Of a DNA stretch of 33,418 bases, positions 14,411 through 32,300 are shown in pieces. Numbering within the stretch: position 1 is the stretch's first letter; each line of letters begins with the position of its first letter. The position numbers were made by a program, and so were the translations under genes. The stretch comes from Thermoanaerobaculia bacterium (lineage in GTDB: Bacteria; Acidobacteriota; Thermoanaerobaculia; Multivoradales; JAHZIX01), in the NCBI GenBank assembly GCA_027069135.1, contig JALXFE010000492.1, positions 65,542-98,959 on the forward strand. Direction: 5' to 3'. The notes beneath the pieces are model-generated. The model did no database searches. It worked only from the letters and a program-made list of their open reading frames with translations, and was not told the DNA's origin.

Positions 14411-16248
14411 TTCCAGGTCCGGAAGTTGTCGAAATAGAAGTTCCCCACGGTGCCGGGATCCAGGCCGAAGACGGCCCCCAGACGCAGGCCTTCGAGGGTG
14501 TGGACCGAGTTGTCGATCCCGCTGAGGTCATGGATCAGGGTCGAGCCGAGCCAGACTCGGGCAAGGCCGTCCGCCAGGCCCGGCGCCGTGGCGGCGCGCC
14601 ACTCCAGGGTGAGGCTCTGAGGAGCGTCGGCGAAGGGCTGCCAACTGCTGAAGAGGTAATTCCCGGCATCCCGGCGAACGAGAAGCCATAGCTCATAGCC
14701 GCCGACGCCGCTGCGCATCCGGAGGCTGAAGGCCGTTCCCCCGGCGCCCCAGCCTTGAAGGACGGTGAAATCTCCATTGGGGATGGCCAGGGAATTGGGG
14801 TCGAAGAGAAACTCGAGATGCTGGGTTCTATCGAGATCCGTCCAGCTCGTCCCCACCCGGGCGGCAGCGTCGCCACTGAGTACGTTGACCTCGAGACCGA
14901 AGGCATCGTCCAACGCCGCTACCGGGGTGGCGGCGACGGACCCGGCACCGCTGACCCCGGCCTCGCTCCAGGCCGAGAGATCACCGCTTTCGAAATCGTC
15001 CCGCTGCCGGTAGCGGCGGCTGTTCCAGCCCCGCCAGGACTCGAAGGCGTCGAAGAAGTAGCTGCCGCTGATGGCGGCGTCGAGGCTGTGGATGGCTCCC
15101 AGGCGGACGCCGTCCAGGAGACGCTCGGAATTGGCGAGGCCTAAAACCTCCGCGACCTCGGCCCCGGCAACCCACAGCCGGGCGAGGCCGTCGGCGGCCG
15201 TGGGATCTGTCGCCGCCCGCCATTCGAGGAGCACCTCATGGACCCCATTGGGGAGCACCGCCGCTGAAGCCGTCGCGTTGCCCCCGACGTTCTTGCGGGC
15301 TTTGAGATGCAGAAAGTACTGGGAGGCGTCCGGCATCTGGGAGATCTCCAGGGAGAAGACATTCCCCGCCGGACCGAAGCCGGTGAAGATCGGATGCTGG
15401 TTGTGGGAGCGAAGGCTGCCGGTATCGATGAGGAAACGGGCCCAGTAGTGATTCTCCCGCTGCGGCGAGCGGTCCTCCACCCAGAGATTCTGAGCACCTT
15501 CGAGGCCCACCCTCAGCGCGTAGCTCCCTTCCAGGCCGGCGGCGGGGATGACCTCGAGGGTGCCGCCGCCGTTGGCGACGACGCTGCCCCAGGCGCTCGC
15601 ATCCCCACTCTCGAAACCATCCTTGTGCAAGGGGACTCGATCCCGCTCGCCGGAGCAGGCTGACACCTCATCGAAGTAGAGCACTCCTACGGTACCGGCA
15701 TCGACGGCGCTCACGGCACCGAGCCGGACGGTCGTCACCGCGACATCCCCGGTATCTAGCCCCAGGAGCTCCGAAACCAGGTGACGATCGATCCACAGCC
15801 GCGCTCCACCGTCCGGTCGCCCCGGGGCGGAGGAAGCCCACCACTCCATATGGATCTGGGCCGTTGCAGACCGCAAGGTGGTCTGGGGCCCGGGAAAGGT
15901 CACCCCGCCATCGAGGACCCGTAGACGAAGGGAAGACTCCTTGGCGCCGCCCACCAACTGGACAGCAAAGGGCTTGGTGGCACCGGAGCGACCGTCCAGC
16001 AGACTGAAGGCCGCTCCCGAGGGAAGACGGAGCCCCGAGGGGTCGAGGAGGAAGCTTATCCGATAGTGGCGCTGGGCCTCCGGCAGGTTGTCGATGAGCC
16101 TCACCTGCGGAGCTCCAACCTGCACGGGGAGCTCTACCGCCAAGCCCAAGAGCCCCTCGAGAGCCGCGGCTGGATCCACCCGGACGTCCCCTTGGCCCAC
16201 CACCTGGACACCATCCCAAAGACTCAGGTCTCCCCCTTCGAAGTCGTC
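14407..16248 (-). repeat. Three tandem ConA-like domain repeats within the giant protein
   Basis: Three units of about 200 residues each open with DDFEGGDLSLW, DGFESGDASAW and DDFESGDLSAW. They close with VRLGAVSAVDAGTVGVLYFD, VRLGAIHSLDAAISGSYFFD and LRLGAVFGLDPGTVGNFYFD. They share ARLW or ARVW before the closing motif. They are clear internal duplications that have since diverged, and look like carbohydrate-binding jelly-roll modules. Confidence 0.8.
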
Positions 16249-19200
16249 CTCCTGCAGAGAAGAACAAGGCCCGAAACGGCTCAGATGGACCGTGCTGGTA
16301 GAGCTTTCGAGGCCGGTCCCGGTGCCCACGGTGTAGGTGAAGGCATCGGAGCCGGTACGCCAGAAGTCCGCCCCCGGCTGATAGACCAGGGAATCCCCGA
16401 AGTCGATGACGGTGCCAAAGGCGGCGCCTCCATTGCCGGCAATCTGCAATTGCGAAGGCGCATCGTTGGCCAGCAGCGCGACCTTCGGCAAGGCCAGGCC
16501 GGCTACGCCCTCGGGGACCAGGAAGTGATCCGGCCGAGCCACCAGCTCGACCGTGACAGAGATACGCCCGCGGTCAGACTCCCGACCGTCGGCATCCCGG
16601 ACCGTGTAGGTGAAGGAATCCTCACCGACAAAATCCGGCTCCGGGAGATACGTCACCGAATCGGCGCCGATGTCCAACGTGCCGTGGGCCGGCGGGCTCG
16701 GGAAGGCTTCGACCGTGAGCCCCTGCCCCTGGTCATTTCCCAACAGGTCGTCGAAGGCCATCTCGGTGCCGACGTCGGAGGGAGCAAGAAAGGCATCCGC
16801 CACGGCGGCCAGGGCCGGCACCGCTGCGGGATAAAAGTAGATCCTACCCACCGCCGAATGGGTGACATCGCCGATCTGCAACCTCATCGTGTAGTGGGCG
16901 CTGTCCACCCCTTGGGTCGGCCAGCCCTCCGGTGGGCAGTAGTGAAATCCCGGCCCCCCGGGGGCGGAGATGGTGCCCCCGGCGGTGGTGGTCGTCTGGA
17001 AGCCGACGATGCTCAGCTCCCCGTCGTAAGGTCGATCATTGGCCAGAACGTCCTCGGCAAAAAACTCCAGGGCCGGCACCACGCAGGTGGGATCCTGGGT
17101 GGTGGGGATATTGCCGAAGGCGTCATCGACGGCCCCGAAGCCACTTTCGGCGACGATGAAGACCGTGGCCTCGGCGGGAGCGGTGGGGTCGGCGTCATAG
17201 CTGACCTGATAGGCGAAGGTGTCGGCGCCGGCCTCCCAGAAGGAATCGTCCGGGGTGTAGACCACGGTATCGCCGACCCTCCGGGCAAGGCCATGAACCC
17301 CGTTGCTGGCGCCCAGGAGCTGGAGGTGCCCCGGCGGCGAGTCGTTGGCTAGAAGGTCTGCCGATGTCAGCACCACCCCCCCGCTGGCCGGGCTCAGGGG
17401 CAAGAGAAACTCGTCCGCCCCGGCCACGGCGATGGCTCGGATATGGAGAAGAGCGGTATCACAGACTCCGGGATCCGAAAGCAGGCAGACTCGGTACAGC
17501 AGCGAGTCAGAGCCCGCCGAATGGAAGCCCGCGGGGTCGTCGAGGACCAGGTTGAAGCCCCCCGGCACGTCCCAGAGGGTGAAGAAAGCGGAGGAAAAGG
17601 CGAGACCGTCCAGGCCGATGGCTCCGGCCGGCTCGTCGTTGCCCAGAATGTCATCCAGCGAGAGAGGGAGATTCCCCCGATCGACAGGAAAATCTATGGC
17701 GTCGTCATTGGCCTCCACCGGATTGCTGCCGAGGACCGTCACCGTGCCGGTCGCCGTCGAGGTGGTGCCCGGGGCCATATAGGCCGGGGCCTCCTGGAGA
17801 CGGATACGGTAACTGAACTGATCCGGTGCATTGGCACAGAAGGCGTCCGGGCCTACGTTGTCCGGGGTGTAGGTAAGCATCCCCGAACCGAGATCCACGC
17901 TGACCTGGCCGTGGGCGGCCTGCACCGCGATGCCGTCCCATTGAATGCGGGCGGCGGGGAGGTCCGTGTCCAACAGATCGCTCAAGGGGAAGGTGAGAGC
18001 CCCGGCGGTTCCGCCAGCTCCCGGCGGTGAGCAGAGGGTGACCTTGATCTCGTCGTCGGCCACCGGCCCGCCGGCAATGACCCGAACCAGCGCCTGGTCC
18101 GTGCGGCCCTCTTCGTCGTCCGGATGAGCGATGACGTATTCGAAGGCGTCGTCCCGATGGCTCCAGAAATAGCCATCCGGGGTGAACTCGATCTCGCCAC
18201 CGGTAAGGAGGTCCGCTTTGCAGCAGACCGTGTCCACGATCTCGACGCCGGCCGGCGAATCGTTGGCCAGCAGGGCCGCCCCGGGAATGGTGAAACTCGA
18301 TTGGGTGGAATCGTAAGGCAGCACCACCCAATCGCTCACCGCCAAGGGGGCTCCCACGGGAGGTGCGAAGGCCGTCAACTGCAGGAGATCGAATCGAAAC
18401 CCGCTGGCACCGATGGCGTCCACCACAAAGCGCAGGATGTGCTGCCCCGCGGCCAGCGACACCACCGGCGGCGAGGGAAGCCACTTGAAGCTGCCGCCAG
18501 TATTGGGAATGGTGATCGCCGGCCCGAGAGCCTGACTCCCGCCCTGGGCGCCGTCGAGCTCGAAGTGGATCTGGCCGCCGTTTGAGTCCGTGCCGGTCTT
18601 GATGTTCAACTCATAGTCGCCGGCGGTGGCCACGGAAACGCTGTACTCCAGCATCTCACCGGCCTCGGGGGCGCCGACGAAGGCCGAGCTGGCTCCCGGC
18701 CAGAGCACCATGTCGGTGCCTTCATAGCCGGAGCCGGGACGGCGATACCCACCGGAGTTGCGCGCCTCGGCGTCGCTGTAGCTGACCCCCTCGCCCCCCA
18801 GGTCGAAGGCCTCCGCCTCGAGGGTTCCCGGCAGAGGGTGGGGAGCGCCCAGATAGGGGGCCCGGGTCCGGGTCGCGACGGTACCGGCCTCGACCCGGAA
18901 GTCGTCGACCTTCATGCGGCCCGCGGCACCGCCGTTCTTGAGATTCATCTGGAACCCGGCGTGGGTGATGTCGATGCGGTCGGCGAAGCTGCCGCCACCG
19001 CTTGAATCCGGCGGCAGCCAGGAGCGCCAGAGCACCTGCTCCGAGTTGACCCAGGCGGAGACCGTGGACGCCGCCGAGTCGTACTCCAGCACCAGGGTGT
19101 TGAAGCCCCCCGGCGTGAAGTCACCGGCCGTGCCGCTGATCATCGGGGCGTGAACGCCGGAGCCCTCCCCATGCACGTCGAAACGGCCGTCCTCCCGCAG

Positions 19201-21642
19201 CAGCATCCAGATCTGGCCATGACCGCTGGGGGTGAAATAGCTGCCCGTGGCGGAGTCCGAGAAGCCCAGAGCGATCCAGCCTTCGCCGACGATCTGAACA
19301 TCGCCGCTCAAGGTCAGGATCGGCGTAGCGCCCTGCTGCGAGGCGTCATAGCTCACTCCACCGATGATCTGGAATCCTTCCCCCACCGGCACGGTGACCT
19401 GGGGATGGGTCACGAAGCCCGAGCCGGTGGAGCCACCGAAGATCGCCTCCGGAGTCGCGGACCAGAGGCGGTCCCCGGCCTCCGTACCCGTGCCGTGGAG
19501 TGGGGCGCCGAGAGTCCGATCGAGGCCGTTGAGCTCGAAACCGTCCACCACGGTGGAGCTGCTCCCCTCGACCACGCTCAGCAAGGGGGCGGCGGAGGTC
19601 ACCGAGGAGGCTCCGGCGGCGGAGACGACGCAGCGGAAGTCCGCCTGGTCGTCGATGAAGGCCAGTGGGCTCACGGTCAGCGTCGACGTCGAGCCCAAAG
19701 TCGTCACCACGTGGCGGCCATCCGTCGGCAGGGGTGCGTTGTTCCGGAGCCATTCGAAGGTAAGGGCGGTCGGCGGCGCCGAAGAAGCCCCGACGACAAA
19801 CTCCGCCGTCCCCCCCACCGGTACCGTCACCGGCTGAGGCTCGAGGTCGATGGTGATCACCGGCCCGGGAGGCTGTGTGGAGCGCAGATAGAGCACCGCC
19901 TCGTCAGCCAGCGCCCCGGACGTGACAAAGGTGGAGCCCGCCGGGGTCGCCGCCTGGCTGATACCCGTCACCGGGTCGAACCAGAAAGCCTCGAAGGTCG
20001 AGGGCAACGCGCCCCCGTTGAAGGTCACCGAGCCGCCACCGTAGAGGTAGGCGATATACTCCTCCCCTTCCCTCGCCAGCAGCCAGACGAAGTCCGACGG
20101 GGTTTGAGCGATCAGATCGTCCCGCGGCACCATGCCCACAAGATCGACCGAAAACTCATCGATGAGGGCCTTGGTATAGCCGACGAAGCGCATGCCGTCC
20201 TGAGTCACCGCCGCGCCGATACCCTGGCGATGGACGTCGTAGACCAACATACTGGGATTGGCCCCGGCGACCAACGAAAGCCAGGCCTTCTTTCGTAGCT
20301 GAGCCGGGGTACCCGGGGTAACACAGCAATCGTTGTCGGCGATCAGGGGACGGTTCGGAAAATCCTGCTCGAAATCCTTGACCAAGCCGCCGTAGACACT
20401 CAAATACTCAGCGTCGCCGTCGTCGGCGCCACCCCCGCCGCTGGGCGTAAAATGTCCGGCCAAATTCCGATGATCCGGAGAGTCGAAAGGCATGATGAGG
20501 TGGTTGGAGCAGCCGGCGGACGCCTCCGTCGAACGGATGGTATCCCGCATCACTTCCTGCCAGGAGCGCCCGCCAAAATCCGCGAGGGGTGCATTCGCGA
20601 AACCATCGTGGGGCTCGTTGATGGTCTCCCAGATAATGTTGTCGAAATGGCATAGATCGCTCACCGCTCGCTCGACGAAGGCAATCTGGGCGTTCACGAC
20701 CTCCGTCCTCTGATACAACTGGGAAGTCGCCGTCACGTCACCGATGCCGAGGCTGTTCTTCGAGCTGAAATATGAGTAATGAAAGCCCCAACGATCCAGG
20801 GGAACCCACTCCGGATCATCGTCGTGGCTAGGGTCGTCGGGCACTTTGGAATGAAAACCGTCCAAGAGGGCCACCTGGAGGACGATGCCCCGATCCCTCG
20901 CCGCTGCCGCCACATCTACCCAATACTGAAAAAAGGACTCATTCCAGACACTCAGATTGAATTTATTCCCGAGGACTCCCGGTTCTTCTCCCGAGTGGTA
21001 GGTACAGCAGGTGCCGGAACGACCGTAGGGATGCAACCAATCGTGCTCTTCCATCGCCATTCCCATGGTGAGAACCGTACGCAGAAGATTGATGTGGTGG
21101 CTGGCCAAAGCATTCAGAAAAGACACATGTTGCCCCCGCAGGCCGGCGTTCGGATCGGCAACCAGGAGGGCCTGGATCCCCGGGTAGTAGCCGGCCAGAT
21201 GCACAGCCTCGCCCCCGGCGAAGAAGCGGTGGGGATCTCTCGGGTCGAGGGTCGGAAGGCCCAAGGGGGTCGGATCGGGAGGGCCGGCGTCCACTTGGAT
21301 CATCACCGTAGCCGTACCGAAGCCGCCGTCTTCATCGAGGACGTCGTAGAGAAGCTGGCATTGCCCTGCTTCGGTCGGAGTCGGCTGATAGGTCAAAGTG
21401 CCGTCGCCGTTATCGAGGGCAACCCCCGGACAGGTATCGGCCTGAAGGGTCACGGTCATCGGGGCGCCGCAACCCGACGAGTCGTTGGCCAGGAGGTCGA
21501 CCCACACCGCGGTGCCGGCGCTGGTGGTGGCGAAGTCGCCCTGCAGGACAAGCTGCGGGTTACAGGTCTCGGCGTCGGAAAGGCTCGCCCAAAAGAAGCT
21601 GAGCACAAGCCAAAGAACACTCGATGTGTGACGGACCTTCAT
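14407..21642 (-). CDS. Giant exported modular glycosidase-like adhesin
   Basis: A 2411-residue protein. In order: signal peptide (1-24); one LLAND-type beta domain (~28-117); a glycosidase-like TIM barrel with NIIWETINEP (Asn342, Glu343) and a following beta domain (YIAYLYGGGSVTF, FEAFWFDPVTG) to ~590; an Ig-like domain (~595-690); a ConA/LamG-like domain (~700-925); a CBM6-like domain (~938-1090, LEAEAFDLGGEGVSYSDAEA); seven more LLAND/GND beta domains (~1098-1786); and three ConA-like repeats (~1795-2411). ATG at 21642 has GGAG 7 nt upstream. The layout suggests a cell-surface or released protein that binds polysaccharide at several points and cuts it. There is no LPXTG, T9SS or PEP-CTERM tail, so how it leaves the periplasm is unclear. 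It is translationally coupled to the YD-repeat gene and divergent from the kinase-linked sigma factor. Confidence 0.87.
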   Translation of the reverse strand: MKVRHTSSVLWLVLSFFWASLSDAETCNPQLVLQGDFATTSAGTAVWVDLLANDSSGCGAPMTVTLQADTCPGVALDNGDGTLTYQPTPTEAGQCQLLYDVLDEDGGFGTATVMIQVDAGPPDPTPLGLPTLDPRDPHRFFAGGEAVHLAGYYPGIQALLVADPNAGLRGQHVSFLNALASHHINLLRTVLTMGMAMEEHDWLHPYGRSGTCCTYHSGEEPGVLGNKFNLSVWNESFFQYWVDVAAAARDRGIVLQVALLDGFHSKVPDDPSHDDDPEWVPLDRWGFHYSYFSSKNSLGIGDVTATSQLYQRTEVVNAQIAFVERAVSDLCHFDNIIWETINEPHDGFANAPLADFGGRSWQEVMRDTIRSTEASAGCSNHLIMPFDSPDHRNLAGHFTPSGGGGADDGDAEYLSVYGGLVKDFEQDFPNRPLIADNDCCVTPGTPAQLRKKAWLSLVAGANPSMLVYDVHRQGIGAAVTQDGMRFVGYTKALIDEFSVDLVGMVPRDDLIAQTPSDFVWLLAREGEEYIAYLYGGGSVTFNGGALPSTFEAFWFDPVTGISQAATPAGSTFVTSGALADEAVLYLRSTQPPGPVITIDLEPQPVTVPVGGTAEFVVGASSAPPTALTFEWLRNNAPLPTDGRHVVTTLGSTSTLTVSPLAFIDDQADFRCVVSAAGASSVTSAAPLLSVVEGSSSTVVDGFELNGLDRTLGAPLHGTGTEAGDRLWSATPEAIFGGSTGSGFVTHPQVTVPVGEGFQIIGGVSYDASQQGATPILTLSGDVQIVGEGWIALGFSDSATGSYFTPSGHGQIWMLLREDGRFDVHGEGSGVHAPMISGTAGDFTPGGFNTLVLEYDSAASTVSAWVNSEQVLWRSWLPPDSSGGGSFADRIDITHAGFQMNLKNGGAAGRMKVDDFRVEAGTVATRTRAPYLGAPHPLPGTLEAEAFDLGGEGVSYSDAEARNSGGYRRPGSGYEGTDMVLWPGASSAFVGAPEAGEMLEYSVSVATAGDYELNIKTGTDSNGGQIHFELDGAQGGSQALGPAITIPNTGGSFKWLPSPPVVSLAAGQHILRFVVDAIGASGFRFDLLQLTAFAPPVGAPLAVSDWVVLPYDSTQSSFTIPGAALLANDSPAGVEIVDTVCCKADLLTGGEIEFTPDGYFWSHRDDAFEYVIAHPDDEEGRTDQALVRVIAGGPVADDEIKVTLCSPPGAGGTAGALTFPLSDLLDTDLPAARIQWDGIAVQAAHGQVSVDLGSGMLTYTPDNVGPDAFCANAPDQFSYRIRLQEAPAYMAPGTTSTATGTVTVLGSNPVEANDDAIDFPVDRGNLPLSLDDILGNDEPAGAIGLDGLAFSSAFFTLWDVPGGFNLVLDDPAGFHSAGSDSLLYRVCLLSDPGVCDTALLHIRAIAVAGADEFLLPLSPASGGVVLTSADLLANDSPPGHLQLLGASNGVHGLARRVGDTVVYTPDDSFWEAGADTFAYQVSYDADPTAPAEATVFIVAESGFGAVDDAFGNIPTTQDPTCVVPALEFFAEDVLANDRPYDGELSIVGFQTTTTAGGTISAPGGPGFHYCPPEGWPTQGVDSAHYTMRLQIGDVTHSAVGRIYFYPAAVPALAAVADAFLAPSDVGTEMAFDDLLGNDQGQGLTVEAFPSPPAHGTLDIGADSVTYLPEPDFVGEDSFTYTVRDADGRESDRGRISVTVELVARPDHFLVPEGVAGLALPKVALLANDAPSQLQIAGNGGAAFGTVIDFGDSLVYQPGADFWRTGSDAFTYTVGTGTGLESSTSTVHLSRFGPCSSLQEDDFEGGDLSLWDGVQVVGQGDVRVDPAAALEGLLGLAVELPVQVGAPQVRLIDNLPEAQRHYRISFLLDPSGLRLPSGAAFSLLDGRSGATKPFAVQLVGGAKESSLRLRVLDGGVTFPGPQTTLRSATAQIHMEWWASSAPGRPDGGARLWIDRHLVSELLGLDTGDVAVTTVRLGAVSAVDAGTVGVLYFDEVSACSGERDRVPLHKDGFESGDASAWGSVVANGGGTLEVIPAAGLEGSYALRVGLEGAQNLWVEDRSPQRENHYWARFLIDTGSLRSHNQHPIFTGFGPAGNVFSLEISQMPDASQYFLHLKARKNVGGNATASAAVLPNGVHEVLLEWRAATDPTAADGLARLWVAGAEVAEVLGLANSERLLDGVRLGAIHSLDAAISGSYFFDAFESWRGWNSRRYRQRDDFESGDLSAWSEAGVSGAGSVAATPVAALDDAFGLEVNVLSGDAAARVGTSWTDLDRTQHLEFLFDPNSLAIPNGDFTVLQGWGAGGTAFSLRMRSGVGGYELWLLVRRDAGNYLFSSWQPFADAPQSLTLEWRAATAPGLADGLARVWLGSTLIHDLSGIDNSVHTLEGLRLGAVFGLDPGTVGNFYFDNFRTWK

Positions 21643-22139: not shown

Positions 22140-22697
22140 ATGGGCGACGAACCTCTGACGGATCTGCTGGACCGCTGGAGCCACGGTGACTCCGCCGCCG
22201 GGGACCGGCTGCTGCCCTTGGTCTACGATCAGCTGCGGGAGCTCGCCGGAGTCCGGTTTCGCGGCGAACGCTCGAATCACACCCTGCAGCCCACGGCTCT
22301 CGTCCACGAGGCCTTCCTGCGACTTCGGGCCCAGAATCAGGTCCAGTGGCAGAACCGAGCCCAGTTCCTGGGCTACTCCGCCCGCGTGATGCGGCAGATC
22401 CTCGTCGATCACGCCCGCTCTCGGAACCGCCACAAGCGGGGAGGGCATTGGCAGCGGGTGCCGATGACCGACATCTCGGATTTCGTTCAGACACCACCGG
22501 GAATCCTGGCGCTCAACGAAGCCCTGGAGTGGCTCGGGAAACGAGACCCGGTCAAAAGCCGGGTGGTGGAGCTGCGCTTCTTCGGTGGATTGACCCACGA
22601 CGAGATCGCCCTGCTGCTCGAGGTCTCAGAGACCACGGTGCGCCGCCATTGGCGAACCGCCCGCGCCTGGCTCCACCAGCGCCTGGTCGAGGATTGA
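22140..22697 (+). CDS. ECF sigma factor of the kinase-linked type (TIGR02999/Sigma70_ECF-like)
   Basis: A 185-residue sigma factor. Region 2 holds HTLQPTALVHEAFLRL (47-62) and FLGYSARVMRQILVDHARSR. Region 4 ends the protein with ELRFFGGLTHDEIALLLEVS and TVRRHWRTARAWL, a helix-turn-helix that would read the -35 element. In most ECF factors the region 2.2 core-binding patch is acidic (DAED before LVQE). Here the aligned residues are QPTA (50-53), with Thr52 where negative charge is expected. This wording is typical of the family found beside Ser/Thr kinases, and the kinase gene begins 4 nt downstream. The ATG at 22140 gives the family length; AGGAGGT lies 14 nt upstream, rather far. No anti-sigma gene is adjacent, so activation by phosphorylation is likely but inferred. 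Confidence 0.9.
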   Translation: MGDEPLTDLLDRWSHGDSAAGDRLLPLVYDQLRELAGVRFRGERSNHTLQPTALVHEAFLRLRAQNQVQWQNRAQFLGYSARVMRQILVDHARSRNRHKRGGHWQRVPMTDISDFVQTPPGILALNEALEWLGKRDPVKSRVVELRFFGGLTHDEIALLLEVSETTVRRHWRTARAWLHQRLVED

Positions 22698-22701
22698 CGC
22701 C

Positions 22702-25425
22702 GTGACGGATGCGCAATGGCAGGAGATCGACCGAATCTTCGAGGCGGCCCTCGAACTGTCCGAAGACGCCCGCCACCCGTGGCTCACGGCAGAATGTGCC
22801 GGGGATCACGATCTGCACCGAGCGGTGCTCCGCTTGCTCGAGTCCGACCGCAAGGCGGAGAGCTTTCTCGCTCGCCCCATGAGTCCCGCCCTGCCGCTGG
22901 CCCCGGAACCAGTCGACGAGCGAGGCCGCCGAGTCGGCGCCTATCGGTTGATAGAACCCATCTCCCATGGCGGCATGGGTTCCGTCTATCTGGCGGAACG
23001 CGACGACGACCATTACCGCCGGCGAGTGGCCATCAAGCTGGTCCGCCAAGGATTTCTCGAAGAGCAGCTGTACCAGCGCTTCCTCCTGGAACGGCAGATC
23101 CTCGCTGGCCTCGAGCACCCCTACATCGCCCGACTCTACGGGGGCGGCGAAACGGAGACCGGACGACCGTTTCTGGTCATGGAATTCGTCGAGGGTCTAC
23201 CCATCGATCGCTACTGCCATGAGCAGGGCCTCGATGTACGGGATCGTCTGGAGCTCTTCCGCAAGGTCTGCACCGCTGTCCACTACGCCCACCAGAATCT
23301 CCTGGTCCACCGGGATCTCAAGCCCGCCAACATCCTGGTAACCCAGACCGGCACGCCACGATTGCTGGATTTTGGGATCGCCAAGGCCCTGACCCCCAAC
23401 GCCGGCAGCTCGGAGCTCACCACCGGTGCCGGCTTGCGCCCCATGACTCCGGGCTATGCCAGCCCGGAGCAGATTCGGGGCAAGGCCATCAGCACCTCCA
23501 GCGACGTCTATGCTCTCGGCGTTCTCCTCTACGAACTCCTCACCGGCGTCCGGCCCCATGAGGTGGAATCCCAGGGGCTCCACGAGCTCGAGCGAGCCAT
23601 CTGCGACCAGCCCCCGACAGCACCGAGCCAACGGGTCCGCTCGGGAAGGGGATTCATGGGCTTGCAGCCCAAGGACCTGGCCCGCCGGCTGGCCGGTGAT
23701 CTCGACACCATTACCCTCACGGCGCTTCGCAAGGAGCCGGAGCGACGCTACGCCTCGGCCCAGGAGCTAGCCGACGACCTCGGCCGGCATCTGGAGAATC
23801 TTCCGGTCTCCGCACGGCCCGATACCTTTAGCTACCGGGCCGGCAAGTTTCTGCGTCGCAACCGTCTGGCGGTGGGAGCCACGACCGCAGCCCTCGTCGC
23901 CCTCCTGGCCATGGCCACCTACGTGGCCATCACCAGCACTCGCGAGGTTCGCCGCACGGCCCTCGAAACTCAGAAGACAGAACAGGCGATGGCCTATCTG
24001 CTGGAGGTCTTCAAGGGCACGGATCCGAGACAGACCGGGCAGGGCCCTCCCTCGACCCTCAAGCTCCTCGACGATGGAACCCGCCAGGTCGGCGAGCGCT
24101 TCGCCGGCAATCCGGAGATGCAAGCGACGCTCTTTGACGCTATCGGCCAGGTCTATACCAGCCTCGGCTACCTCGAGCGAGCAAAGCCCCTGCTCATCCA
24201 GGCCCTCGCGTTTCGTCGCCAGCATCTGGAAGAGGCACACCCGGATGTCATCGAAAGCCTGATTCACCTGGGAGAGCTTCAATCGGCCTCGGGCCGTCCA
24301 AAGGAAGCCATCGCCTCCTATGAAGAAGCTCTCGATGCCCTGCTCCGCCAGGAGGAGGCCGCCGTCCCGAAGATCAACCGAGTGCGGCAGAATCTGGCCG
24401 CGGCCACCCTGGAGAACGGGGATCTAAAGACCGCCGAGAGGCTTCAGCGGCAAGTCCTGGCAGCTCTTCGAATCAGCCCGGAGACCGAAGGCCTCGAGAT
24501 GAGCGAAGCGATGAACGCTCTGGGAACCATCCTCAATATCCGCAACGCCTTGGACGAGGCCGAGGCTCTGCATCGGGACGCCCTGAGGATCGAAGAAGCG
24601 AGGCTGACCGACGATCATCTGACCCTCGCTAGCACCCGCGAGAAGCTCGCTTTGGTCCTCATCGGTTCCGGTCGCTACGTCGAAGCCGAGAACCTTCTGC
24701 GCTCCTGCATCGCGGCTCGCGAGAAAGCCCTGGATCGGGAGCACCCGGACCTGGCCCAGGGACTCGCTCACCTGGCCATCAGCCTCTACTACCAGGGGAA
24801 GCTGGGAGAGGCTGAAAAGCTCCATCGGCGATCCCTGTCCATGGTCGAGAGACGCCTGGGGAGCGAGCACCCGGAAAGGGCGACCAGCCTCCACAACCTC
24901 GGTATCCTGCAACTCTCGACCGGCGATCTGGAGGCTGCGGAGCAGAGCCTGCGCCAAGCCCAGGCCATCCTGCAGAAGGTCCTCGGCGACGACCACCTAC
25001 GCACCGCCAAGGCCAGGTCAATTCTGGCTCTGGTCCTGCAAAGGATGGGAAGGAAAGAGGAGGCCCAGGAGATCCACGACGCCATCCTGCCGGTCCTCAA
25101 ACGGACCTACGACACCGAGGGGTTGGCCTGGGCTCATTTCCTCCTCCAATTCGGTCGATCCTTGCTGGTAGCGGGAGACTACGAGGCAGCCGAAGCACCC
25201 CTAGCCAAAGCCCTGGAGAATCGTCGGCGCGGCCTGTCTCCGGATCATTGGATGGTCGCTGAGACGAAAGGAGCGTATGGGGTCTGCCTGGCGAGGCTGG
25301 GCCGGCACGCTGAGGCCAGAGCCCTCCTGACCGAAGCGCGGCCGAAAGTCTTGGAGAACTTCGGTGCCGAGAATTGGCGAATCCGCAGTATCGACGCCAC
25401 CCTGGCCGGCCTGCCCAAACCATGA
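22702..25425 (+). CDS. Transmembrane Ser/Thr protein kinase with C-terminal TPR sensor
   Basis: A 907-residue protein with a GTG start; GAGGA lies 8 nt upstream, inside the end of the sigma-factor gene. An N-terminal ~75-residue helical leader precedes a PknB-like kinase domain (~82-370): SHGGMGSV loop, VAIK (Lys112), HRDLKPAN (Asp205), DFG (Asp223), then SPEQ in place of APE. The usual first glycine of the loop is Ser. One hydrophobic segment follows (~388-411). The remainder (~440-900) is a run of 42-residue KLC-type TPRs (for example HPDLAQGLAHLAISLYYQGK). The kinase would be cytoplasmic and the TPRs periplasmic, where they may sense a protein or peptide. The 4-nt spacing to the QPTA-type ECF factor makes that sigma factor its most likely substrate (inference). 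Catalytic residues are intact. Confidence 0.93.
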   Translation: MTDAQWQEIDRIFEAALELSEDARHPWLTAECAGDHDLHRAVLRLLESDRKAESFLARPMSPALPLAPEPVDERGRRVGAYRLIEPISHGGMGSVYLAERDDDHYRRRVAIKLVRQGFLEEQLYQRFLLERQILAGLEHPYIARLYGGGETETGRPFLVMEFVEGLPIDRYCHEQGLDVRDRLELFRKVCTAVHYAHQNLLVHRDLKPANILVTQTGTPRLLDFGIAKALTPNAGSSELTTGAGLRPMTPGYASPEQIRGKAISTSSDVYALGVLLYELLTGVRPHEVESQGLHELERAICDQPPTAPSQRVRSGRGFMGLQPKDLARRLAGDLDTITLTALRKEPERRYASAQELADDLGRHLENLPVSARPDTFSYRAGKFLRRNRLAVGATTAALVALLAMATYVAITSTREVRRTALETQKTEQAMAYLLEVFKGTDPRQTGQGPPSTLKLLDDGTRQVGERFAGNPEMQATLFDAIGQVYTSLGYLERAKPLLIQALAFRRQHLEEAHPDVIESLIHLGELQSASGRPKEAIASYEEALDALLRQEEAAVPKINRVRQNLAAATLENGDLKTAERLQRQVLAALRISPETEGLEMSEAMNALGTILNIRNALDEAEALHRDALRIEEARLTDDHLTLASTREKLALVLIGSGRYVEAENLLRSCIAAREKALDREHPDLAQGLAHLAISLYYQGKLGEAEKLHRRSLSMVERRLGSEHPERATSLHNLGILQLSTGDLEAAEQSLRQAQAILQKVLGDDHLRTAKARSILALVLQRMGRKEEAQEIHDAILPVLKRTYDTEGLAWAHFLLQFGRSLLVAGDYEAAEAPLAKALENRRRGLSPDHWMVAETKGAYGVCLARLGRHAEARALLTEARPKVLENFGAENWRIRSIDATLAGLPKP

Positions 25426-25531
25426 ATACCTGTCGAGGACCTGTTGGCGAGGGAGAGCCCCTGGCGGAAGAACGGCACCGCTGATACGGTGGGTCGGCTC
25501 TGACTTCTTCGAACCGATAGGAGCTTCTTCC

Positions 25532-26149
25532 TTGGACGACGCCCGGCTGCTCCAGGCCATCCGCTCCGGCGCCCCCGGAGCCTTCGACGCTTTTGTCGAC
25601 CGCTACGGCCGTCGGCTGATGGCCTTTGGTATGCGCATGTGCGGCCAGCGCCAAGACGCCGAGGACGTCTTCCAGGACACGCTGCTCAAGGCCTATAAGA
25701 GCCTCGAGGACCTTCGGGATCCGGCCGCCTTGAGGACCTGGCTCTTCCGCATCGTGGCCAATCAATGCCGCATGAAACGGCGCAAGGAGATCCCTAGCCG
25801 GGAGCTCCCCCTGGACGACCTCGGCCCTCCGGGCTGGGAAGGGAACGGCTCACCGGACGGGGAATGGGGAGAGGGGATTCCGCAGGCGGTCTTCGATTGG
25901 TCCCACCTGCCGGAGGCGGCCGCCGAGCGAGCACAGATGCGGGAGGCCTTGGAGACCGCCCTCGCGGAGCTCCCCCCGGATTACCGGATGGTGGTGCTGC
26001 TCCGGGACCTCGAAGGGCTTTCCACCCGGGAGGCCGCCGACGCGCTGGGCCTGGGCCTCTCCGCTGCCAAGATGCGCCTGCACCGGGGTCGTCTGGCCCT
26101 GCGCAAGCGTCTCGAACAGGTTTTCCAACCCGCAGGAGGCAAGGCATGA
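25532..26149 (+). CDS. ECF sigma factor (RpoE-like), TTG start
   Basis: A 205-residue sigma factor. Region 2 has FVDRYGRRLMAFGMRM, CGQRQDAEDVFQDTLL (DAED at 42-45) and LRTWLFRIVANQCRMKRR. Region 4 has ELPPDYRMVVLLRDLEGLST and a helix-turn-helix ending AKMRLHRGRLALRKRL. The linker between them (~80-130) is long and rich in Gly, Pro and acidic residues. The TTG at 25532 fits because TAGGAG (25518-25523) lies 8 nt upstream and the family match starts there; the upstream in-frame extension has no similarity. The gene starts 106 nt after the kinase and overlaps the putative anti-sigma gene by ATGA. Unlike the sigma factor at 22140 it has the normal acidic patch, so it is probably held off by an anti-sigma factor. 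Likely targets are the efflux/redox genes downstream. Confidence 0.92.
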   Translation: MDDARLLQAIRSGAPGAFDAFVDRYGRRLMAFGMRMCGQRQDAEDVFQDTLLKAYKSLEDLRDPAALRTWLFRIVANQCRMKRRKEIPSRELPLDDLGPPGWEGNGSPDGEWGEGIPQAVFDWSHLPEAAAERAQMREALETALAELPPDYRMVVLLRDLEGLSTREAADALGLGLSAAKMRLHRGRLALRKRLEQVFQPAGGKA

Positions 26150-26454
26150 GTCAGCATGACCCCGGCATGGAAAAGCTCCTCGCCCTGCCCCGGGAGGACC
26201 GGCAGGCCTTCTGTCGCCAGGTGTTGGACAACCTCTCGGATCTCGTGGAGGGAGAGGCACCGGAGGATCTCTGCCGCCAGGTGGACGAGATCCTCGCCGA
26301 ATGCCAGCCTTTCGTCGCCTACCGCAACACCCTCCAGGCCACGATCCGTCTGCTGGCGGACCACGCCGCCTCCCCCTCCGCCGGAGCCGACATTGACGAG
26401 GATCGATTCCAGGCCTGCGTCGAGAAAGTGCGCCGCCGGCTTCGGAGCGAATAG
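26146..26454 (+). CDS. Putative anti-sigma factor with degenerate zinc-finger (ZAS-like) motif
   Basis: A 102-residue helical, soluble protein. Its ATG overlaps the sigma-factor stop (ATGA) and has AGGAGG 6 nt upstream, so the two are made together. The stretch LCRQVDEILAECQPFVAYRN (42-61) aligns by eye with the zinc anti-sigma core of the form CRxVxxHLxECPxCRxYxxT. Of the HxxxCxxC ligands only Cys53 remains: His is Ile49 and the last Cys is Phe56. Position and this resemblance make it a cytoplasmic anti-sigma factor for the gene at 25532. Zinc binding of the usual kind looks impossible, though Cys23, Cys43, Cys53 and Cys91 could still do redox chemistry. An unrelated small regulator is the alternative. 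Confidence 0.75.
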   Translation: MSQHDPGMEKLLALPREDRQAFCRQVLDNLSDLVEGEAPEDLCRQVDEILAECQPFVAYRNTLQATIRLLADHAASPSAGADIDEDRFQACVEKVRRRLRSE

Positions 26455-26479
26455 CCGACAGCGGGACTCGGAGGCCCGC

Positions 26480-26496
26480 CACAGAAAATTTCTGTG
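26480..26496. promoter_or_regulatory. Palindromic operator-like sequence upstream of the efflux operon
   Basis: CACAGAAA-A-TTTCTGTG is a perfect palindrome with 8-bp arms, 26-42 nt after the anti-sigma stop. Its right arm runs into the TGTGACC -35-like element at 26493-26499. It could be a repressor or activator site overlapping the promoter. Confidence 0.45.
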
Positions 26497-26519
26497 ACCC
26501 TTTTCTGCGCCGCTGCATC
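26493..26519 (+). promoter_or_regulatory. ECF-type promoter for the efflux/redox operon
   Basis: TGTGACC (26493-26499), followed by CTTTT, has a 16-nt spacer to CATC (26516-26519). ECF promoters of the general form TGTAACC-N16-CGTC look like this. The predicted start near 26526 is about 49 nt before the DUF2892 ATG. The neighbouring ECF factor at 25532 is the natural candidate to read it. The two mismatches to the general form lower confidence. Confidence 0.45.
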
Positions 26520-26574
26520 CCTCTATCGAAGGCCCTCCTGGAAGAGCGTCTTCCCCTGGAAAAAGGAGCAGACC

Positions 26575-26775
26575 ATGCACATCGAAAACAAAGTCCGGGC
26601 CTTTGCCGGCACCTTCACCCTGATCGGCCTCACCCTCGGCTGGTGGATCCATCCAGCCTTTTTCCTGCTGACGGCCTTCGTCGGCCTCAATCTCCTCCAA
26701 AGTGCCTTCACCGGCGTCTGCCCGCTGGTGAACATCCTTGAGCGGGATCGCATGACCCGCCACGTGGACTCGTGA
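26575..26775 (+). CDS. DUF2892 (YgaP-like) inner-membrane protein
   Basis: A 66-residue protein. N-terminal MHIENKVRAFAGTFTLIGL, then a hydrophobic run, HPAFFLLTAFVGLNLLQSAF and TGVCPLVNIL match the small DUF2892 family, also found as the membrane part of YgaP: two transmembrane helices with a conserved GxCP near the end (Cys49). The ATG at 26575 has AAGGAG 6 nt upstream. It is the first gene of the efflux/redox operon and ends 11 nt before the TolC gene. Members are often encoded with rhodanese, thioredoxin or DUF302 genes, which suggests a link to sulfur or thiol chemistry; the exact role is unknown. Confidence 0.85.
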   Translation: MHIENKVRAFAGTFTLIGLTLGWWIHPAFFLLTAFVGLNLLQSAFTGVCPLVNILERDRMTRHVDS

Positions 26776-26786
26776 GGGAACAGACC

Positions 26787-28115
26787 ATGATGCGTCCGAT
26801 GATTAAAGCGACGGTGGTCGCAGCTCTCGTTTTCGCCACGGCGCCTGCCGCTGGAGAGGTATTGACCCTCGAGAGGGCCATCGCCATCGCCCTCGAGGAC
26901 AATCTCGAGCTGGCCGCCGCGGACGCTCGCCTAGACGCCGCCGAGGCCGGGGTGGACGAAGCCCGAGCGGCCCGTCTCCCTCAGGTGGATCTCGCGGCGG
27001 GCTTTCTCCGCACGGACCACCCGGTACAGGTCTTCGGTACCCTCCTCTCCCAGGGCCGGTTCAGCGAAGAAAATTTCGCCATCGGCTCTCTCAACGATCC
27101 CGCTCCCCTCTCCGACTGGAATAGCCGGCTGAGCTTCACCCTGCCCCTGTGGACCGGCGGTGGGATCCGCGCCCAACGAGAGGCCGCCACCCACCAGCGG
27201 GAGGCCGCTGCCGCCACCCGCAGCCGCTCCCGGCAGCAGGTGGCCTATCGGGTCGTGGAGGGCTACACCACCGCAGTTCTGGCCCGGGCACAGTTGGAGG
27301 TCGCCCAAGACGCCCTCGCCGCCGCCCAGGGCAATGTCAAATTGACAGAGGATCTGTGGCGTGCCGGCCTGGTGGTGGAATCCGATCCCCTCCAAGCCCG
27401 GGTCCGAGAAAGCGCCCTGCAGGAGCTGGTGATCCGCGCCGAAAGCGGAGTGGAGATCAGCCGGTCCACCCTCAACCAAATCCTAGGGAGAGACCTCGAC
27501 GAGCCTTTTCTCCTGCCCGAAGACCTGGCGGTGGAAGACGCTGACGATGAAGACCTGAAAGACATCCTGGCGACGGGGCCAGAGAACCGGCCGGACCTCC
27601 TGGCGGCGACGCTGCAAGTCGAGACCGCCCAACAGGCGGTTCGGGGGGAACGCTCCAGGCGCTGGCCTCAGGTCATGCTTCGCTCCTCCGTCGACACAGA
27701 TGACGAGAGCTTCTTTGCCGCCGACGGGCCTCATTGGACCGCCGGGGTGGGGTTTCGCCTCCGTCTCTTCGACGGTGCCGCCGCACGTTCCCGGGTACTG
27801 CGGGCCCAGGCTCGCCAACGGGAGGCGCAAGCCCAGCAGCAGCTCCTCAAAGACACCGTAGGCCTCGAGATCCGCCGTGCTTACCACGAGCTCAAGGCCG
27901 CCGGTCAACGGTTGAAACAAGCCACCGCGGCGATTTCCTTAGCCGAGAAAAGCCGCACCATTGTGGATGATCGATACAAATCCGGGTTGGCCCGCCTGCC
28001 CGAGCTGCTGGACGCCGAGTCCGCGCTCACCGAGGCCCGTCTGCGCGACGTGGCCGCCCGCCGGGACCTACTCTTGACTCGAGCCGCCCTCGATCTGGCG
28101 GCGGGGAGACTGTGA
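26787..28115 (+). CDS. TolC-family outer-membrane efflux protein
   Basis: A 442-residue protein with a signal peptide (about 1-22, MMRPMIKATVVAALVFATAP). It has the two-fold repeated outer-membrane factor layout: LTLERAIAIALEDNLELAAA opens repeat one and a matching coiled-coil pair makes repeat two, ending with YKSGLARLPELLDAESALTE before the terminal helices. It forms the trimeric tunnel that takes substrate from the RND pump across the outer membrane. The ATG at 26787 is preferred because GAGGGA lies 7 nt upstream; a GTG at 26772 in frame is possible. It overlaps the adaptor gene by one base (TGATG). Confidence 0.92.
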   Translation: MMRPMIKATVVAALVFATAPAAGEVLTLERAIAIALEDNLELAAADARLDAAEAGVDEARAARLPQVDLAAGFLRTDHPVQVFGTLLSQGRFSEENFAIGSLNDPAPLSDWNSRLSFTLPLWTGGGIRAQREAATHQREAAAATRSRSRQQVAYRVVEGYTTAVLARAQLEVAQDALAAAQGNVKLTEDLWRAGLVVESDPLQARVRESALQELVIRAESGVEISRSTLNQILGRDLDEPFLLPEDLAVEDADDEDLKDILATGPENRPDLLAATLQVETAQQAVRGERSRRWPQVMLRSSVDTDDESFFAADGPHWTAGVGFRLRLFDGAAARSRVLRAQARQREAQAQQQLLKDTVGLEIRRAYHELKAAGQRLKQATAAISLAEKSRTIVDDRYKSGLARLPELLDAESALTEARLRDVAARRDLLLTRAALDLAAGRL

Positions 28116-29320
28116 TGGAAACTTTGACGAATGGGAACCTTGCGCCGGGGCTGAAGCCCCGGGCTGGTTTTCGAGCCCGCCTGAAGGCGGCCTGGTTCTC
28201 GACGTGGGGGCCTCTTCGCTTCTTGACTTTCCTCCTGGCCCTGCCGGTCCTCGGCCTCACCGCCTGCGGCGGAGGCGAGGCACCCCGGGAAGCCCAGACA
28301 CCTCCGGCGGCCATCGCGGTGAAGGTGGCGACCCTCGAGCCCCAGGTATTTGCCGCCACCGTCCAGGCTCCCGGTTCTCTGGTGGCCCTGTCCCGGGTCT
28401 CCCCCGGCACTAAGATCCTAGGTCGCGTCGAGCGGGTGGTGGTGAAAGAGGGGGACCGGGTGCGCCGGGGGCAGCTCCTGGCGAAACTCGAGTCCCGAGA
28501 CCTTGAGGCGGCTCTGGGCCAGGCCCGCAGCGGCCTCGCCATGGCTGAAGCACGCCTCGACAACGCCCGCGCCCAGCGGGACCGTATGAGCGAGCTCCAC
28601 GGCCGGGGGTCGGCCACAGAAAAGGGGCTGGAGGACGCCGTCGCCGCGTTTCGTATCGCCGAAGCCACCGTGGCCAAGGCCCAGGCGGATATCGCCGCCG
28701 CCCGCGTCCAGCTGGATTACGCCGCCATCCGCAGCCCCCGGGATGGCTGGGTGGTGAAGAAATCCATCGAGCCCGGGGATATGGCGACTCCCGGCGCCCC
28801 CCTCTTCGTCGTCGAAGATCTCTCCCAGTTGGAAGCGGTCGTGCGGATTCCCGAGGCCGACGTGGCAGGAATTGCCCCGGGAGCCAAAGCCCAGGTGGAG
28901 GTGCTCGGAAAGAAGCGGTCTGCCGTCATTGACCGCATCGTCCCGGCGAGTGACCCCGCCAGTCGCACCTTCGAGCTGCGGCTGGTCCTGGACAACCCGG
29001 ACGGCATTCTCAAGTCCGGCATGTTCGCCCGGGTATCCCTCGACATCGGCCAGGAGGAAGTCCTCTCCCTGCCCACCGAAGCCCTGGTACACCGGGGACA
29101 GCTCACCGGTACCTACATCGTCGGAGCCCACGATCATGCCCGCCTGCGTTGGATCAAGATCGGCCGTGAGCTCGAGAGCGAGGGCGAGACTCGGGTGGAA
29201 ATTCTCTCCGGCCTCAAGGCCGGGGAACGCTTCGTCGTGTCGCCGCCACCGGGCCTCACGGATGGAGCGCCGGTGATCGCCCAGGCCTCCTCGGGAGCTG
29301 CCGGAGGAGCCCAGCCATGA
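28115..29320 (+). CDS. RND efflux periplasmic adaptor lipoprotein (HlyD/AcrA-like)
   Basis: A 401-residue membrane-fusion protein linking the RND pump to TolC. Motifs: VERVVVKEGDRVRRGQLLAK (barrel-sandwich half), a long Ala/Arg-rich coiled-coil hairpin, LDYAAIRSPRDGWVV (second half), a beta-barrel domain and a membrane-proximal end. A lipobox LTAC places the lipidated Cys at residue 51. The region before it is unusually long: residues ~11-28 are encoded by a palindromic repeat that also occurs between genes at 2313-2357. The ATG at 28115 has GGGGAG about 7 nt upstream and overlaps the TolC stop; a GTG one codon earlier is also possible. No good later start with a ribosome site precedes the hydrophobic segment, so the repeat is probably translated. 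It overlaps the pump gene by ATGA. Confidence 0.9.
   Translation: METLTNGNLAPGLKPRAGFRARLKAAWFSTWGPLRFLTFLLALPVLGLTACGGGEAPREAQTPPAAIAVKVATLEPQVFAATVQAPGSLVALSRVSPGTKILGRVERVVVKEGDRVRRGQLLAKLESRDLEAALGQARSGLAMAEARLDNARAQRDRMSELHGRGSATEKGLEDAVAAFRIAEATVAKAQADIAAARVQLDYAAIRSPRDGWVVKKSIEPGDMATPGAPLFVVEDLSQLEAVVRIPEADVAGIAPGAKAQVEVLGKKRSAVIDRIVPASDPASRTFELRLVLDNPDGILKSGMFARVSLDIGQEEVLSLPTEALVHRGQLTGTYIVGAHDHARLRWIKIGRELESEGETRVEILSGLKAGERFVVSPPPGLTDGAPVIAQASSGAAGGAQP
28145..28199. repeat. Clover-leaf palindromic repeat, copy B, inside a coding sequence
   Basis: CCGGGGCTGAAGCCCCGG (28145-28162), then GGCTGGTTTTCGAGCCCGCC, then TGAAGGCGG, closely match copy A at 2313-2357 in order and spacing; several changes are paired so that the stems persist. 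This copy is read through in frame as part of the adaptor N-terminus. Confidence 0.75.
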
Positions 29321-32300
29321 ATCAGGATCTCGGCCCCGCCGGCCGCCTGGCGGCCCTATTCCTGGACTCCAAGCTGACTCCCCTGCTGGTGGTGGCAGCC
29401 CTCGCCCTGGGGGTGATCTCCGTGGCCTTTACGGCTCGAGAAGAGGAGCCCCAGGTCATCGTCCCCATCGTCGACCTCTTCGTCGGGCTGCCCGGCTCGG
29501 AGCCGGCAGAGGTCGAGAGCCGGGTCGTGATCCCCTTAGAAAAACGCATGTGGGAGATCCCCGGCGTAGAGTACGTCTACTCCACCGCCATGACCGGCAT
29601 GGCGGCCATCACCGTCCGCTTTCAGGTCGGGGGCGATCCGGAACGGAGCCTGATCCGGGTCTACGAGAAGATCGCCGCCAACCTGGACAAGGCACCGGCG
29701 GGGGCCACTCCTCCCTTGGTCAAGGTGAGGAGTATCGACGACGTGCCGGTGCTGGGACTTACCCTTTGGAGCGAGCATTACGACGCCTCCGAGCTGCGCC
29801 GCATCGCCGGTGAGCTGGGCAGCGAGCTGGCCGCCGTCGACAAGGTTGCGGACATGAAGCTCATCGGTGGCAGCCGACGCCAGGTGCGGGTGCTCCTGGA
29901 TCCGCAGCGAATGGCCGCATCGGGACTCGATCCGGCAGCCGTCGCCGGATCCCTCAACCTGCAGAACGCAGCCGCTCCGGCGGGTAGCTTCCAGGTCGGG
30001 AATCAGGAAGTGCTGGTCACCACCGGTGCCTTCCTCACCAGTGCAAGGGAAGTCGCTGCTCTGGTGGTGGGCCTCCGAGACGGACGCCCCATCTACCTCC
30101 ACCAGGTTGCGGAAATAAGAGACGGTGCCGAGGAGCCCGCCTCCTACACCTCCTTCCGCGCCGGTCCCGGTCACGACAACGCCAGCTCCGCGTTCCACGA
30201 TGCTGTGACCCTCACCTTCGCCAAGCGCAAGGGAGCCGACGCCGCCCGGGTGGTGGCCCGCATCATGGACAAGGTGGAGACCCTCCGGGGCACCGTCCTA
30301 CCGCCGGACGTCCAGGTCGAGATCACCCGGGATTACGGCGCCACCGCCAAGGAGAAAGCCAACGAGCTGCTGACCCATCTGCTGGTGGCGATTCTGTCGG
30401 TATCCATCCTCATCGGCTTTGCCCTCGGCTGGCGGGGCGCCCTGGTGATCTTCATCTCGGTGCCGGTGTCCTTCGCCCTGACCCTCTTCGGCTACTACGT
30501 CTTCGGCTATACCTTGAACCGGGTCACCCTCTTCGCCTTGATCTTCGTCACCGGCATCGTGGTGGACGACTCCATCATCGTGGTGGAAAACATGGTGCGG
30601 CATTTCTCGAAGAGCTCCAAGAGGACACCGCTGGCCGCCATCCTCGCCGTCAACGAGGTCGGCAATCCGACCATCCTGGCAACCTTCACGGTGATCGCCG
30701 CAGTGCTGCCCATGGCCTTTGTCCGCGGCCTCATGGGGCCCTATATGCGACCCATGCCGGTGGGAGCCTCTGTCGCCATGATGTTCTCGTTGCTGGTGGC
30801 CTTGATCTCCGCCCCCTGGTTCGCCTATCGGCTCCTCAAGGGCAGCAAAGCTCCCGCCGACGACGAAGTCCGGAAGGAATCCCTCATCTACCGGACCTAC
30901 CGCCGGATCCTGGTACCGATGATGGTGAAGCCCCGCAAGGGCTGGATCTTCTTGGGGGTGATCACCCTGCTCCTGGTGGGCTCGGTGCTCCTGGTGCCCG
31001 CCAAGCTGGTGAGCCTCAAGATGCTGCCCTTTGACAATAAGAGCGAGCTCCAGGTGATCCTCGACCTGCCGGAAGGCACCCCCTTAGAGGCCACCGCCGC
31101 CGCCGCGCGGGAAATCGCCGACTACCTGGCACAGCAGCCGGAGGTGCGGGACCTCGAGCTCTACGCCGGCACCGCCGCTCCGATCAATTTCAACGGCCTG
31201 GTGCGTCATTACGACCTGCGGCAGGGCCCCAACGTTGCGGACCTGCAAGTCAACCTGGCCCACAAGAGCGAGCGGGATCTGCAGAGCCACGACATCGCCA
31301 AGCGCTTCCGGGGCCCGGTGCAGGAGATCGCCCGGCGCCACGGTGCCAACGCCAAGATCCTCGAGGTCCCCCCGGGGCCGCCGGTCCTAAGCACCCTGGT
31401 AGCGGAGATCTACGGTCCCACCCAGGAGGAGCGCCTGGCCGTAGCCCGGCAGGTGAAGGAGGTCTTCGAGACCACCGACGGCGTGGTGGACGTGGATTGG
31501 ACGGTAGAGGATCCCCAGCCGAAGAAAATCTTCCGGGTGGATCATGAGAAGGCCGCCCTGGCCGGTGTACCGGCAGCTTCGGTGGCCCGAACCTTGCGTC
31601 TGGCTCTCTCCGGCGAGGACGCCGGCCTGCTCCACCTGCCGGAGGAGCTGGAGCCGGTGACCGTGCGCCTGGAGGTTCCACGGAAAGATCGCTCCTCCAC
31701 CGCGGATCTAGGCCGTATCCACCTGCGCTCCGGGAGTGGCGCTCCGGTGCCCCTGTCGGAGCTGGTCAGGGTGGAGGAGACGACCCTCTCCCCCAGCCGC
31801 TATCGCAAGAACCTCCAACCGGTGATCTATGTCTTGGCCGACGTTGCCGACGGTGCCGAAAGCCCGGCCTACTCCATCCTCACCATGGCGGAGCGCCTGG
31901 ATGAGCTCGAGCTACCCGCCGGCGGCAAGCTGAAACAGCTCTATCGAGCCCAGCCGGATTCGACGGAGGAGCCGGTGCTCAAATGGGATGGTGAATGGCA
32001 GATCACCTACGAGGTCTTCCGAGATCTAGGCGGCGCCTTCGGGGTGGTCTTGGTGCTCATCTACTTGCTGATCATCGGATGGTTCGGTTCTCTGCGAGTG
32101 CCCTTGGTGATGATGATCGCCATCCCCCTGAGCCTGGCCGGCATTCTGCCCGCCCATTGGGCCTTCGGCGCCTTCTTCACCGCCACCTCGATGATCGGCT
32201 TCATCGCCCTGGCGGGGATCATGGTGCGCAACTCCGTCTTGCTCATCGACTTCGTGAACCTCTCCTTAGCGGAGGGCCGTACCCTGGGAGAGGCCCTGGT

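Follow-up and report, generated by a model that had tools for sequence, protein, structure and literature searches.

We have analysed a window of 33,418 nucleotides (the whole stretch of DNA, whose positions are used throughout) from a Thermoanaerobaculia bacterium of the Acidobacteriota, and have focussed on a sigma factor gene and the kinase gene that follows it. The features of this pair, together with one from a neighbouring gene that serves as an internal contrast, are the following:

22140–22697, plus strand: ECF sigma factor of 185 aa, TIGR02999/PF07638 family (ECF43-like), from the coding sequence and profile matches
22287–22298, plus strand: QPTA, sigma factor residues 50–53, replacing DAED in region 2.2, with the proposed phospho-acceptor Thr52
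22467–22469, plus strand: Thr110 in the linker between sigma2 and sigma4, candidate second phosphosite
22545–22556, plus strand: sigma4 residues 136–139 (helix 4.2), with coevolutionary coupling to residue 10 of the kinase
22641–22679, plus strand: sigma4 residues 168–180 (last helix), with coevolutionary coupling to helices 1 and 3 of the kinase
22702–25425, plus strand: transmembrane Ser/Thr kinase of 907 aa, GTG start, 4 nt after the sigma factor stop codon
22708–22872, plus strand: N-terminal three-helix extension (kinase residues 3–57), proposed sigma4-docking domain, from AF2, the match to PknS and the couplings
22942–23814, plus strand: Hanks-type kinase domain, all catalytic motifs present, from a profile match and the motifs
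23869–23934, plus strand: single transmembrane helix (kinase residues about 390–411), from hydropathy
24097–25341, plus strand: TPR sensor region, predicted to be extracytoplasmic, from profile matches
25655–25666, plus strand: DAED in the canonical ECF sigma factor encoded next to, but outside, the pair, from alignment

The sigma factor matched TIGR02999 with 211.7 bits (cut-off 126.15, E 7e-63, residues 4–182) and PF07638 with a score of 190 (cut-off 21.1, E 5e-56). A preliminary description of this DNA had read QPTA in place of DAED at residues 50–53, with Thr52 (codon ACG, 22293–22295) inside the motif, and the translation of the coding sequence confirms it. The second ECF sigma factor of the window (25526–26149) is a canonical one, with QRQDAEDVFQD at the place aligned with QPTA, so that the acidic patch is truly missing from region 2.2 of the first, as had been claimed. 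This is no chance motif, since 32 of the 38 TIGR02999/PF07638 paralogues found in this genome have Thr at column 52 and QxTA is the consensus of the family; in other words, QPTA is the usual consensus of a large and already known family of sigma factors. Most of these 38 genes lie beside a kinase gene, and another genome of the same genus gave 74 matches to the family. The ECF43 sigma factors are described as lacking DAED and carrying instead a QTTA-like motif, with the Thr kept in 88% of the members, and as being activated by an adjacent kinase (PMC8999054, PMC13147305). The sigma factor studied here likewise lacks DAED, has its own Thr where EcfP and EcfK have theirs, within a QTTA-like motif, and is followed by a Ser/Thr kinase gene with no anti-sigma gene in between.

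The kinase had been described correctly as regards its distance from the sigma factor gene, its complete catalytic site, its transmembrane helix and its TPRs, but its N-terminal domain had been overlooked. The Pkinase domain spans residues 81–291, with GGMG at 90, AIK at 110, HRDLKPAN at 203, DFG at 223 and SPE at 254, and seven TPR_12 stretches reach the C-terminus. The best relative in the PDB is PknS of Xanthomonas citri (9eed_A), with an alignment that starts at residue 5, and the layout is that of PknS: N-terminal helical extension, Hanks domain, transmembrane helix and C-terminal sensor. The TPRs of PknS are periplasmic, and the Thr that it phosphorylates is the equivalent of Thr52 (PMC13147305), so the TPR sensor, which had been put forward as a new twist, was already known in the same layout. 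In the nearest relative of the pair (L266) the sigma factor is 64% identical, with both QPTA and Thr110 kept, and the cytosolic half of the kinase is 55% identical while the TPR region has diverged, indicating that the sensor is free to change.

Thus, the pair belongs essentially to the published sigma-kinase switches of the ECF43/PknS type. With EcfK/PknS of X. citri it shares the Thr in region 2.2 and a sigma factor beside a Hanks kinase that crosses the membrane, begins with a helical extension and carries its TPRs at the C-terminus. However, the EcfK motif is QATE instead of QPTA, and the target in X. citri is a T6SS, whereas the genome studied here holds about 38 paralogues. In EcfP of Vibrio parahaemolyticus, which is reported to be intrinsically inactive, DAED has become STTA and the second Thr is phosphorylated (PMC8999054). 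This second Thr aligns with Thr52, a likeness drawn from the published motif, although the signal in V. parahaemolyticus is polymyxin stress. The analogy with EcfP/PknT made in the preliminary description was therefore well founded, given the same sigma family, the same place of the Thr, an adjacent PknS-type kinase and a pattern of compensation (see below) that fits a role of the charge. What is new here is the kinase extension, which a comparison of the sequences of 258 pairs indicates to be a putative sigma4-docking domain.

Conservation of Thr52, which had been proposed as a check, was borne out, with Thr in 243 of 263 relatives from samples unselected for Thr (25 of 27 in the Gammaproteobacteria sample and all 35 in the Planctomycetota sample); the loci from the scan of genome contigs were excluded from this rate because the scan pattern itself contains Thr52. 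The accompanying expectation that the Thr would be kept solely beside kinase genes did not hold. Among 15 sigma factor genes of the same unselected samples with no kinase within 1.5 kb there were 14 Thr and one Ser, so the conservation is not explained by adjacency and a test based on adjacency cannot discriminate. The loss of Thr52 is more informative. A negative-charge role predicts that, when the residue is lost, a hydroxyl will have moved or an acid will be fixed nearby, and Thr/Ser at 51 or D/E at 50 or 53 was found in 36 of the 38 sequences without Thr52, vs. 93 of the 323 that keep it (P=8e-16, an optimistic value since the sequences are related). A DNA-pattern scan of 396 genomes gave 23 non-Thr variants, 20 of them with Thr/Ser at 51, and for 16 of the 23 there was a kinase within the fetched stretch. 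One kinase-linked homologue (L410) has QPAA, with neither hydroxyl nor acid, and counts against the switch model. There are also sigma factors with EPAA, lacking a hydroxyl but with an acid at 50 (L026:12218–12787, minus strand, and L290/L262), which have a kinase nearby on the opposite strand and are perhaps hard-wired, kinase-independent versions.

Judged by these sequences, the pattern of Thr52 loss fits a negative-charge role, as predicted, and not that of a helix cap. It might be argued that QPTA is structural, Thr52 simply capping the following helix, and that the sigma factor is active as such or controlled solely through its own synthesis, which would agree with the equal conservation of the Thr where no kinase gene is near. 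However, a cap would tolerate D or N, and the 361 sequences show D once and N never at column 52. Neither would a cap call for a Thr/Ser at 51 or an acid at 50 upon loss of Thr52, and phosphorylation is backed by experiments in two relatives (PMC8999054, PMC13147305), so we find this explanation very improbable. Natural phosphomimics (D/E at 52) were also looked for in copies without a kinase and are practically absent, the single D adjoining a kinase.

Thr52 need not be the sole site. In X. citri, EcfK T51A is functional in vivo and a Thr in the linker substitutes for T51, either T51 or T106 being needed (PMC13147305). Of 217 relatives, 158 have D/E in the column of Thr110, which, together with the linker Thr of EcfK, makes Thr110 a residue that may be a second phosphosite. 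Hence, the proposal of Thr52 as phosphosite stands as regards its EcfP/PknT-like position, but may be incomplete in naming a single site. Could Thr110 be the main switch, with Thr52 as an auxiliary? The acids at this column, the retention of Thr110 in the nearest relative and the requirement for T51 or T106 in EcfK all lean that way, and the functional T51A mutant weighs against Thr52 as the key site. On the other hand, most relatives have an acid at 110 and yet retain Thr52, and residue 110 is equated with T106 only by the logic of the alignment. We regard a main switch at Thr110 as rather improbable.

The extension of the kinase consists, according to AF2, of three helices (residues 3–17, 21–31 and 36–57, pLDDT about 95). 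A Pfam search with residues 1–57 matched no family, while the extension alone found PknS (9eed_A) in the PDB at E 4e-11. In PknS the N-terminal segment has 83 residues and is invisible, i.e., disordered, in the crystal structure 9EED, and its role was left open (PMC13147305). Of 176 sigma-adjacent kinases, 170 matched a profile of the extension, vs. 3 of 20 other kinases of the genome (for L148 the downstream side was masked in this count); the sigma-adjacent kinases are perhaps one clade, which makes this distribution alone weak evidence. Three kinases of this genome (L325, L326, and L327) have the extension and no sigma factor gene in the fetched stretch, and a few sigma factor genes (L024 and L042) have no kinase; these are possible split pairs. 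At another locus (L273:4968–10536) the sigma factor gene is followed by two tandem kinases, both with the extension, possibly representing two inputs into one sigma factor. An orphan kinase without the extension (L309:2522–4666, minus strand) adjoins the window on its left side (contig C492:64826–65581).

The extension varies in step with the sigma factor. In 142 pairs, the distances between sigma factors correlated with those of the extension at r 0.42 and with those of the kinase domain at 0.21, and for sigma4 the values were 0.40 vs. 0.09. The top couplings in 258 pairs (sigma factor residue followed by kinase residue) were 139–10 (z 8.1), 172–49 (z 7.3) and 180–44 (z 6.4), with 176–13 and 180–41 at z 5.1 each, and none of the 12 highest-ranking couplings involved sigma2. 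In the pair of the window, the coupled residues include K139–D10, R172–D49, and A176–F13. PknS aligns a Glu with kinase residue 10, so that Lys/Arg or a neutral residue would be expected in EcfK at the equivalent of 139. When 118 pairs outside the discovery set were used, 139–10, 172–49, and 180–44 ranked 4, 1, and 3 out of 9464; some couplings of the discovery set, e.g., 170–10, failed to replicate in these pairs. The coupled positions fall in helix 1 (6, 10, 13, and 14) and helix 3 (41, 44, 48, 49, 52, and 53) of the extension and in the last helix of sigma4 (168–180), and their spacing of 3–4 residues is the pattern of packed helices. Like-charge pairs at 139/10 were expected 30 times by shuffling (minimum 18 in 2000) and observed not even once, and A/F and L/L alternate at 176/13, which is size complementarity.

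These couplings also carry information about the partner. We trained without one genome, ranked all its paralogues and repeated this for three genomes. The mean rank of the held-out true partner was 4.0 of 28 in the genome studied here, 4.6 of 25 and 2.2 of 13 in the other two (permutation p 5e-5 in each), and for the sigma factor of the window its own kinase came first of 28. Exact assignment was incomplete, with 8/28, 7/25, and 11/13 partners correct. The coupling of the kinase domain with the sigma factor, tried as a source of specificity, was rejected: for the same 28 pairs its columns gave mean ranks of 14.6–16.9, where chance gives 14.5, while the extension, with an equally reduced training set, reached z 4.4.

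There is a trivial explanation for coupling between adjacent genes, namely that they are passed on jointly and that the sigma4 couplings are mere co-inheritance. We find it scarcely credible here. The kinase-domain columns, co-inherited to the same extent, hold no partner information, the coupled positions show helical spacing with charge and size complementarity, and swapping partners between nearest relatives lowered the 139–10 signal from 0.252 to 0.064 (this strict swap was used because permuting within sets of 5 or 10 nearest relatives involves many swaps and mixes widely). From these comparisons we infer that the extension docks sigma4 and presents Thr52 to the kinase.

Such docking is reminiscent of the class I anti-sigma factors (RseA, RskA, and RsiW), in which helices 1–3 form a bundle whose helix 1 (D11 in RseA) and helix 3 touch helices 4.2 and 4.4 of sigma4, while regions 2.1/2.2 are blocked by helix 4 (PMC7406223). 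The extension is predicted to be a bundle of three helices too, coevolution points to 4.2/4.4 as the targets of its helices 1 and 3, and its couplings resemble the key contact of those proteins, Asp-Arg or hydrophobic. Unlike them, it has no fourth helix for sigma2, with only three helices in residues 1–75, and it is followed by a kinase domain whose proposed target is in region 2.2. Neither Pfam nor the fold search connected the extension with class I anti-sigma domains by sequence or by a confident fold match, the latter search returning weak homeodomain-like and unrelated matches, none of them confident (RskA, 4nqw_B, Z 2.8). For a structure of the joined pair we used a natural in-frame read-through of sigma factor, stop and kinase from this genome (L001), with the stop read as Gly and an alignment of 37 paired and 62 unpaired rows. 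The AF2 model had a mean pLDDT of 86 and a pTM of 0.83, with the extension at 97–98, although the short natural linker may force proximity. Its sigma factor superposed on those held by anti-sigma factors (149 residues of CnrH at 5.8 Å, 145–152 of SigW at 7.0–7.5 Å) better than on holoenzyme-bound ones (26–27 Å), so that the compact form is favoured, again with a possible bias from the linker.

It is conceivable that the kinase acts chiefly as an anti-sigma factor, sequestering sigma4 through its N-terminal domain, and that release is what activates the sigma factor, with the phosphate being secondary. The coupled helices are those touched in class I complexes, and the compact AF2 sigma factor resembles CnrH/CnrY and SigW/RsiW. 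However, sequestration would not be needed to keep the sigma factor off if, like EcfP, it is intrinsically inactive (PMC8999054), and the fold search linked the extension to no anti-sigma domain with confidence. We consider this reading unlikely. Docking by itself does not tell apart a kinase that inhibits, one that delivers, and one that does both.

The model that we consider probable is an ECF43/PknS-type switch in which the extension docks sigma4, Thr52 is phosphorylated and docking selects the partner. We infer the phosphorylation, the physical docking complex, the release, the signal and the regulon, and they would be linked in the following manner. At rest, the sigma factor, lacking the acidic patch for the beta' clamp of RNA polymerase, would be held at the membrane by its own kinase, with sigma4 gripped at its helices 4.2 and 4.4 by helices 1 and 3 of the extension. 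A signal reaching the TPR domain would activate the kinase, phosphorylation of Thr52 (perhaps of Thr110 too) would restore the missing charge, and the phosphorylated sigma factor would then bind the core polymerase. The choice of partner among about 38 paralogues would reside in the docking interface and not in the kinase domain. With less assurance, but still leaning toward it, we propose that the extension is a sigma4 binder that functions like the half of an anti-sigma factor that contacts sigma4, and may derive from it, with the kinase domain replacing the helix that blocks region 2.2. Positions 139/10, 172/49, 180/41/44, and 176/13 would then be an insulating code, and the holding, choice and activation of the sigma factor would all fall to one membrane protein.

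We found no explanation in the literature searched for how dozens of similar kinases find their own sigma factors. The docking code, if true, could explain the absence of cross-talk among dozens of pairs in one cell. The coevolving residues provide a concrete hypothesis and offer a role for the domain that is disordered in the PknS structure, and sigma-kinase pairs of this kind could act as orthogonal membrane-to-promoter switches.

Concerning the surroundings of the pair, a gene divergent from that of the sigma factor and about 500 bp apart (14407–21642, minus strand) codes for a secreted-looking protein of 2411 aa with cadherin-like/tandem-95 repeats, Ig and CBM6 domains, a possible member of the regulon. 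On the other side (25526–32745, plus strand), the canonical ECF sigma factor gene starts about 100 nt past the kinase and is followed by that of a small YgaP-like transmembrane protein and then by a complete RND efflux set (OEP, HlyD-type adaptor, and AcrB-type pump).
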